From a filamentous cyanobacterium CCT1 (GTDB lineage Bacteria; Cyanobacteriota; Cyanobacteriia; Phormidesmidales; Phormidesmidaceae), in the NCBI GenBank assembly GCA_003017855.1, contig PYER01000035.1:1-34314 (forward strand): DNA of 34,314 nt. The letters run 5' to 3'. A model generated the notes under the pieces. The model worked only from the letters and a program-made list of their open reading frames with translations. It did not search any database and was not told the DNA's origin. A program made the translations under genes and the position numbers. Shown here one piece after another: positions 14,563-15,207 of this stretch (within the stretch, counting starts at the first letter, position 1; each line of letters begins with the position of its first letter).

Positions 14563-14651
14563 AGACGGAGTTAAGCTAAACGGGTAGGGTCACAACGTTC
14601 TAGCTTAAGGGGTTGACCGCCCAAAAAGATCGCGCCCAAAGGATCGCAACA

Positions 14652-14930
14652 GTGCCTCCAGAGTCTCCACTTGAGGGAAAAGCTTTAGTTAAAGAAGTGT
14701 GCCGCCGCATTCGCCTGGCCCGCAGCTACTGGGATGCCCACAACAACGCTGCCTGCCGGGGCGAGCGCGAAAAAGCGCTGGCCCTCTACAACACCCTCAC
14801 CAAAGAGCAAAAAGACCAGATTCCCCAAACCCTGCGGGTCTGGCTACGCTACCGCAGTGAAAAGTACTTTGGCGCCCATCAAACCCCGCCAGGGAATAAT
14901 GGGCGATCGGCGAAGGGACGAAAGCGATAG
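14652..14930 (+). CDS. Small basic protein, unrecognised
   Basis: The product is about 92 residues and highly charged. It has a helical centre (KEVCRRIRLARSYWDAHNN, then REKALALYNTLTKEQKDQIP and RVWLRYRSEKYFG) and a basic disordered tail (SAKGRKR). I believe such short soluble proteins recur in cyanobacteria but know no function; the basic surface suggests nucleic-acid or ribosome contact. Start choice: GTG at 14652 has AAAGGA eight bases upstream. The frame reaches back to a TTG at 14613, whose only Shine-Dalgarno-like bases abut it. It ends just before the tRNA promoter and tRNA-Ala locus on the same strand. Confidence 0.65.
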   Translation: MPPESPLEGKALVKEVCRRIRLARSYWDAHNNAACRGEREKALALYNTLTKEQKDQIPQTLRVWLRYRSEKYFGAHQTPPGNNGRSAKGRKR

Positions 14931-14948: not shown

Positions 14949-14954
14949 TAGAAT
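14949..14954 (+). promoter_or_regulatory. Candidate -10 box for the tRNA-Ala locus
   Basis: TAGAAT sits 15 bases before the first tRNA-like copy at 14969, inside TTTTTGGTAGAATACTTGC. A consensus -35 is not visible at the right spacing. A promoter here would transcribe the degenerate copies together with the intact tRNA. Confidence 0.4.
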
Positions 14955-14968
14955 ACTTGCAGTTCTGA

Positions 14969-15043
14969 GGGGAATGAGCCCGGTTAGCAAAGCCTTGCGT
15001 TCCCGCAGGTGGCCCAGGCCAATCGCACTGTTTTGGTTCACAA
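14969..15043 (+). pseudogene. Degenerate tRNA-Ala-like copy 1
   Basis: The first 38 bases match the second copy (15044) at 29 positions without gaps, including the full GGGGAAT acceptor strand and the segment TGCGTTCCCGC. After an anticodon-stem-like segment it carries about 22 extra bases, then CAATCGCACTG, which resembles the tRNA-Ala(CGC) anticodon loop, and GGTTCAC reminiscent of a T-arm. No acceptor 3' strand follows; the next copy begins at once. It cannot fold as a normal tRNA. Confidence 0.5.
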
Positions 15044-15134
15044 GGGGAATTAGCTCAGCTGGTAGAGCGCTGCGTTCCCGCCAGGGTATCCGAAAGACAA
15101 TCGCGCCGCAACGGTGAATCATACAGCAAAATAC
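15044..15134 (+). pseudogene. Degenerate tRNA-Ala-like copy 2 with exact 5' half
   Basis: Bases 15044-15074 are identical to the first 31 bases of the intact tRNA-Ala (15135-15165): acceptor 5' strand, D-arm and anticodon-stem 5' strand. It then diverges with about 25 bases (15075-15099, starting TTCCCGCC) before ATCGCGCCGCA, which resembles the anticodon loop and 3' stem. The T-arm and acceptor 3' strand are missing. It looks like a partial tandem duplication carrying an insertion in the anticodon loop. Confidence 0.75.
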
Positions 15135-15207
15135 GGGGAATTAGCTCAGCTGGTAGAGCGCTGCGATCGCACCGCAGAGGTCAGGAGTTCGAATCTCCTA
15201 TTCTCCA
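15135..15207 (+). tRNA. tRNA-Ala (anticodon CGC)
   Basis: This is an intact 73-base cloverleaf. The acceptor strand GGGGAAT pairs with ATTCTCC through a G3-U70 wobble, the identity element read by alanyl-tRNA synthetase, and the discriminator base is A. The D-arm is GCTCAGCTGGTAGAGC, the anticodon stem CTGCG/CGCAG encloses ATCGCAC (anticodon CGC, reads GCG), and the T-arm is AGGAG-TTCGAAT-CTCCT. CCA is not encoded, as usual in cyanobacteria. It sits at the end of a tandem array of partial copies. Confidence 0.95.

Follow-up and report, generated by a model that had tools for sequence, protein, structure and literature searches.

A tRNA-Ala(CGC) array in a filamentous cyanobacterium: probable decayed tandem gene copies interrupted by SDR5-type repeats at a HIP1 site

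The window, i.e. the whole stretch of 34,314 nucleotides that was analysed (contig PYER01000035.1 of assembly GCA_003017855.1, filamentous cyanobacterium CCT1, of Nodosilinea type), was found to contain three tRNA-Ala(CGC)-like copies starting at 14969, 15044 and 15135. A 105-aa open reading frame (14613-14930) was located directly 5′ of the array; it gave no Pfam match and could be recognised at the corresponding position in many congeners. A 117-aa DDE transposase fragment (PF13612; 15619-15972), probably a remnant, was located just 3′ of the tRNA. The array was found to contain the following features.

14949..14954, + strand: -10-like hexamer TAGAAT, single, 5′ of the whole array (sequence; motif position in relatives)
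14969..14999, + strand: copy 1, degenerate 5′ half of tRNA-Ala(CGC) (repeat family D1, 74% identity over 39 nt)
15000..15021, + strand: copy 1 insert, probably a decayed SDR5-type element, 22 nt, TTCCCGCAGGTGGCCCAGGCCA, with GCG/ATCGC flanks (family alignments, covariation)
15022..15043, + strand: copy 1 3′-side remnant (ATCGCACTG...) and spacer, without T-arm or acceptor 3′ strand (sequence)
15044..15074, + strand: copy 2, 31-nt 5′ half without differences from the intact tRNA (repeat comparison)
15075..15099, + strand: copy 2 insert, probably a decayed SDR5-type element, 25 nt, TTCCCGCCAGGGTATCCGAAAGACA, with GCG/ATCGC flanks (sequence, alignment)
15100..15134, + strand: copy 2 3′-side remnant with degenerate tail hairpin (15104-15116, CGCCG-CAA-CGGTG) and spacer (alignment)
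15135..15207, + strand: intact tRNA-Ala(CGC) (ARAGORN; Rfam RF00005, 66.2 bits)
15163..15170, no strand assigned: uninterrupted HIP1 octamer GCGATCGC in the anticodon stem and loop, an empty target site (sequence)

The array was found to be real, and its outline in the first-pass annotation was reproduced: the 31-nt 5′ halves of the second and third copies were identical, the copy at 14969 was a third, degenerate one (compared with the copy at 15044 as reference), and both inserts began with TTCCCGC and were followed directly by ATCGC, the GCG...ATCGC segment of copy 1 spanning 14997-15026. The T-arm and the acceptor 3′ strand were missing in both interrupted copies. The covariance-model scan that had been proposed recovered copy 3 alone with Rfam, and neither copy 1 nor copy 2 was credibly called a tRNA by ARAGORN or Rfam, even at a relaxed Rfam threshold, or showed a cloverleaf with T-arm and acceptor. 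The anticodon stem and loop of the intact gene read CTGCG-ATCGCAC-CGCAG, hence the HIP1 octamer within it. The functional tRNA-Ala(CGC) gene appeared to be single in the genome, the other matches being at most 81% identical, with tRNA-Ala(TGC) as the best of them.

What had been described as an anticodon-loop insertion, and left unrecognised, is on sequence grounds an SDR5-type small dispersed repeat inside the HIP1 octamer, the class being assigned by insertion point, length, hairpins and dispersal. The SDR elements are reportedly 21-27 nt long and may move through RNA. The window inserts were found to split HIP1 between bases 3 and 4 (GCG/ATCGC), which is the insertion point given for SDR5 in a passage of PMC4390886 citing Elhai et al. 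2008. The insert in relatives was almost always 24 nt long (TTCCCGCAGGGTGGCCGAAGGCCA, TTGGCGCAGCCTGGCCGTTGGCCA and similar) and contained TT followed by a hairpin (GGC-GNA-GCC, CCC-GNA-GGG and similar) and a second hairpin of 5 bp, and the junctions on both sides of the 24 nt were precise, without target duplication. Two-helix covariation was found in 95 element-pattern sequences, with 93.0% of the cells paired against 68.7% after shuffling and a covariation score of 0.607, reached by 0 of 500 shuffles, against 0.165; columns 8 and 12 of this alignment were set by the search pattern and are uninformative.

The element was found to be dispersed: its pattern matched seven times in the genome to which the window belongs and as many as 9 times in congeners, with none for the reversed control; across the pattern searches, Nodosilinea genomes contained up to 12 copies, against 0-1 for reversed controls. 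In a flank-free search, 15 of the 30 loci listed lay exactly in HIP1 and 9 more lay in it with one mismatch (24 of 30 in all), whereas CG/A was present at the junction in 27 of the 30. Nested inserts of 48 nt, one SDR5 within another, were found in G224 and G153. At L111 and L112, SDR5 was found repeatedly at HIP1 sites of tandem-repeat genes, where its 24 nt equal eight codons and the frame was kept. Pattern matches in non-cyanobacterial genomes lay outside tRNA genes and were set aside as chance matches.

The HIP1 insertion point, the 24-nt hairpin element, the dispersal and the nesting are thus shared with the SDR5 of cyanobacteria as far as it is described from Elhai et al. 2008 in PMC4390886, the difference being the occurrence here in tRNA gene copies and in tandem arrays of Nodosilinea and relatives. 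The REP/REPIN elements (PMC3116915; PMC3733652) are likewise small dispersed palindromic repeats presumed to be mobile without genes of their own, but the target of the insert is HIP1, and neither a GTAG/CGTC tag nor a REP doublet was seen.

The search of related genomes that had been suggested recovered the same arrangement in many of them, which shows that the array did not arise by chance. The relatives found were Nodosilinea by name, plus Halomicronema sp. CCY15110, and of 22 further congeners searched with the array sequence, most contained the locus. About 54 interrupted copies were found in 27 genomes, a count from which false matches in G007, G010 and G021 were left out, and all of them contained an insert, mostly of 24 nt (48 nt if nested). 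The array-bearing relatives contained 1-8 interrupted copies, located upstream or downstream of the intact gene or on both sides, whereas the working tRNA-Ala(CGC) gene was never found to carry an insert and an intact copy was always present where the contig allowed. The layouts included the following (S, interrupted copy; T, intact copy).

Window: S S T
G011: S S T
G038: S S S T
G001: S T S S
G018: T S
G041: S T S
G387: S T S S
G211: eight S, then T
G060 (another family): five S, then T
G158 (third family): T S

The array of G211 (L130, G211:C2:1054751-1055603) contained eight near-identical 104-nt tRNA-SDR5 units before the intact tRNA, which suggests recent array growth. The unit sequence of G060 (L146) was almost identical to that of Nodosilinea G038, and the congener of G060, G037, contained a lone tRNA; horizontal transfer is possible. 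A second SDR5-like element, on the opposite strand and at or beside a CG/A junction, was found in the T-loop of downstream copies in G001, G018, G041, G178, G376, G381, G158 and G387. The low-scoring calls in G007, G010 and G021 were rejected as false matches (by direct check for G007 and G010, by reading the flanks for G021), and the orphan 5′-half matches at G001:C153, G013:C332, G021, G007 and G010 were found to be ordinary tRNA-Val genes. The SDR5-type element itself is already known; tandem tRNA-SDR5 arrays across three families were not described in the literature searched, to which the original SDR description did not belong, so that a claim of novelty may be wrong.

A lone clean tRNA preceded by random sequence, which the first-pass annotation had named as the finding that would speak against its reading, was encountered in some relatives and the array in others, so the presence of the array is variable. 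Eight congeners (G004, G002, G012, G006, G019, G014, G017 and G021) contained a clean tRNA only and three others (G007, G010 and G008) contained deletion scars at the locus. Together with the full-length and partial tandem copies of other relatives, these bear out the reading of a decayed tandem duplication.

Group I introns occur in tRNA anticodon loops of cyanobacteria, and the insert resembles them in interrupting the gene near the anticodon, but it is 24 nt long, has no intron core and is dispersed outside tRNAs. A related reading, in which the insert is a tRNA intron removed from the RNA and the copies are working tRNAs, draws on the insert lying where the anticodon loop begins and on two downstream copies in relatives (G178 and G085), which gave a recognisable tRNA-Ala(CGC) when their flanks were joined. 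It is refuted for the window copies, as their joined flanks gave no tRNA fold, and in general it is almost certainly wrong, since the same element is dispersed across the genome outside tRNA genes and several downstream copies contain the second, oppositely oriented insert in the T-loop.

The tRNA-Ala(CGC) gene was found to be an integration site in relatives, as seen from detached 3′ halves starting exactly at ATCGC elsewhere in their genomes (L055, L056 and L059) and from a 389-aa tyrosine recombinase (PF00589) located 3′ of the tRNA in L014 (L014:1706-2875). The tRNA and the ATCGC boundary used by these tRNA-targeted integrative elements with an anticodon-loop crossover are those of the array, and the 5′ halves could on this evidence be regarded as att-site scars. 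This is extremely unlikely, because the integrative elements at this tRNA carry and duplicate the 3′ half, whereas the array consists of 5′ halves with SDR5; the extra copies contain the 24-nt element, full-length downstream copies exist, and no integrase was found between the copies. The window copies do not show the duplication of the tRNA 3′ end at an element boundary that marks an att duplication, and the earlier view that the array is no ordinary att duplication holds for the 5′ halves in the window.

The hexamer TAGAAT, which had been said to precede all three copies, occurred once and not before each copy. TAGAAT or TAAGAT was found 18-20 nt 5′ of the first copy in most array-bearing relatives and at the same distance 5′ of the intact tRNA in array-less relatives, so the array is placed between promoter and gene, and the extra copies 3′ of the promoter are probably transcribed as a leader. 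The hexamer is a candidate -10 element for the whole array; a promoter scan gave no full sigma-70 match and a terminator scan detected nothing.

A reading in which the upstream copies serve as a structured, functional tRNA leader, or give rise to RNAs resembling 5′ tRNA halves, with conserved hairpins, would fit this placement, in which the -10-like motif is as far from the first copy as from a lone tRNA, as well as the compensatory changes in the SDR5 part and the keeping of stems across genera, including the tail hairpin GCACCG-NNN-CGGTGC, which was present in most upstream units. The stems of upstream units were better kept than expected (93.1% paired against 86.4% after shuffling), and together with the spread over genera this could reflect constraint acting once the element was in place; recurrent insertion, or conversion, would produce the same pattern, and the stem figures do not distinguish between these. 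A functional leader is nevertheless very unlikely. The eight congeners with a clean tRNA only and the three with deletion scars do without the array, and the copy number ranges from 0 to 8. In the alignment of the element family the window copies were found to carry hairpin changes, hairpin B of the copy 2 insert being broken (hairpin A was retained), as was the tail hairpin in copy 1, and copies 1 and 2 folded no better than shuffles (z +0.91 and +0.86). The array was judged, from these sequence comparisons, to be non-functional, and the proposal that 5′ tRNA-half fragments are released from a precursor found no support, the array being absent from several congeners and decaying in this genome.

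The occupancy of the copies is more puzzling. HIP1 was found at a spacing of about one per 715-1085 bases, i.e. several thousand sites per genome, and about 2-12 strict SDR5 matches were counted in the genome of most congeners, so that about 0.1% of the HIP1 sites were occupied. A tandem extra copy without an insert was not found among the matches listed in a sample of 388 genomes, for which the per-genome counts were complete; the two intact tRNA copies of G362 were located on separate contigs. The occupancy of every extra copy, at a site occupancy of about 0.1%, is not easily explained by independent duplication and insertion. Selection for an intact tRNA explains that the working copy was never hit, but not the universal occupancy of the duplicates, which could reflect shared descent from few events, recombinational loss of uninterrupted duplicates, or insertion and duplication being linked.

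Such a link, in which the SDR5 insertion itself causes a local tandem duplication and so yields an adjacent uninterrupted copy, is a compatible variant of the explanation by interrupted pseudogenes and is itself rather unlikely, though less so than the readings discussed above. Possible routes are copying of the target during insertion, or recombination of interrupted and intact chromosomes in a polyploid cell. The variant is favoured by the occupancy of all of the approximately 54 extra copies and by a like layout at an ABC-transporter ATPase gene, where an incomplete second copy bearing SDR5 at its HIP1 site lay behind an intact 3′ end in the window's genome (G000:C64:12189-12579; L213 and L116) and in G010 (G010:C7; L214), the gene being single and uninterrupted in G016 and G007. 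If true, the coupling would explain both the universal occupancy of the extra tRNA-Ala(CGC) copies and this ATPase layout. Against it, the ATPase case was the only flank duplication among about 43 other dispersed SDR5 sites, a small number of events may lie behind many of the tRNA cases, and part of the pattern is accounted for without coupling if an intact tRNA is selected for.

The array is therefore best explained as decayed, non-functional tandem copies of one tRNA-Ala(CGC) gene, interrupted by SDR5 at HIP1, and this reading, which takes up the observed insertion point, covarying structure, dispersal, array recurrence and persisting intact copy, is very probably correct. The tRNA-Ala(CGC) gene would have been duplicated in tandem, before or together with the insertion, and an SDR5-type element would have entered the extra copy between GCG and ATCGC of HIP1; movement through an RNA or single-strand DNA intermediate would agree with the hairpins, the absence of target duplication and the fixed orientation. 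The interrupted copy would survive because the intact copy keeps the function, and the units would later multiply or disappear through unequal recombination or slippage, with the unit series of G211 and the deletion scars in other species as examples, and then drift. The extra copies cannot form a tRNA and most likely do nothing.

The decayed, interrupted copies account for the tRNA-like partial repeats at this locus, which annotators could take for tRNAs that are split or contain introns. Of the mobile DNA elements that have been proposed, SDR5 ranks with the smallest, and the arrays, in which occupied and unoccupied target sites lie next to each other in many species, keep a natural record of how elements inserted and nested and how the arrays grew. 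As one tRNA copy is under selection to stay intact, the arrays could be used to test the linkage of insertion and duplication.
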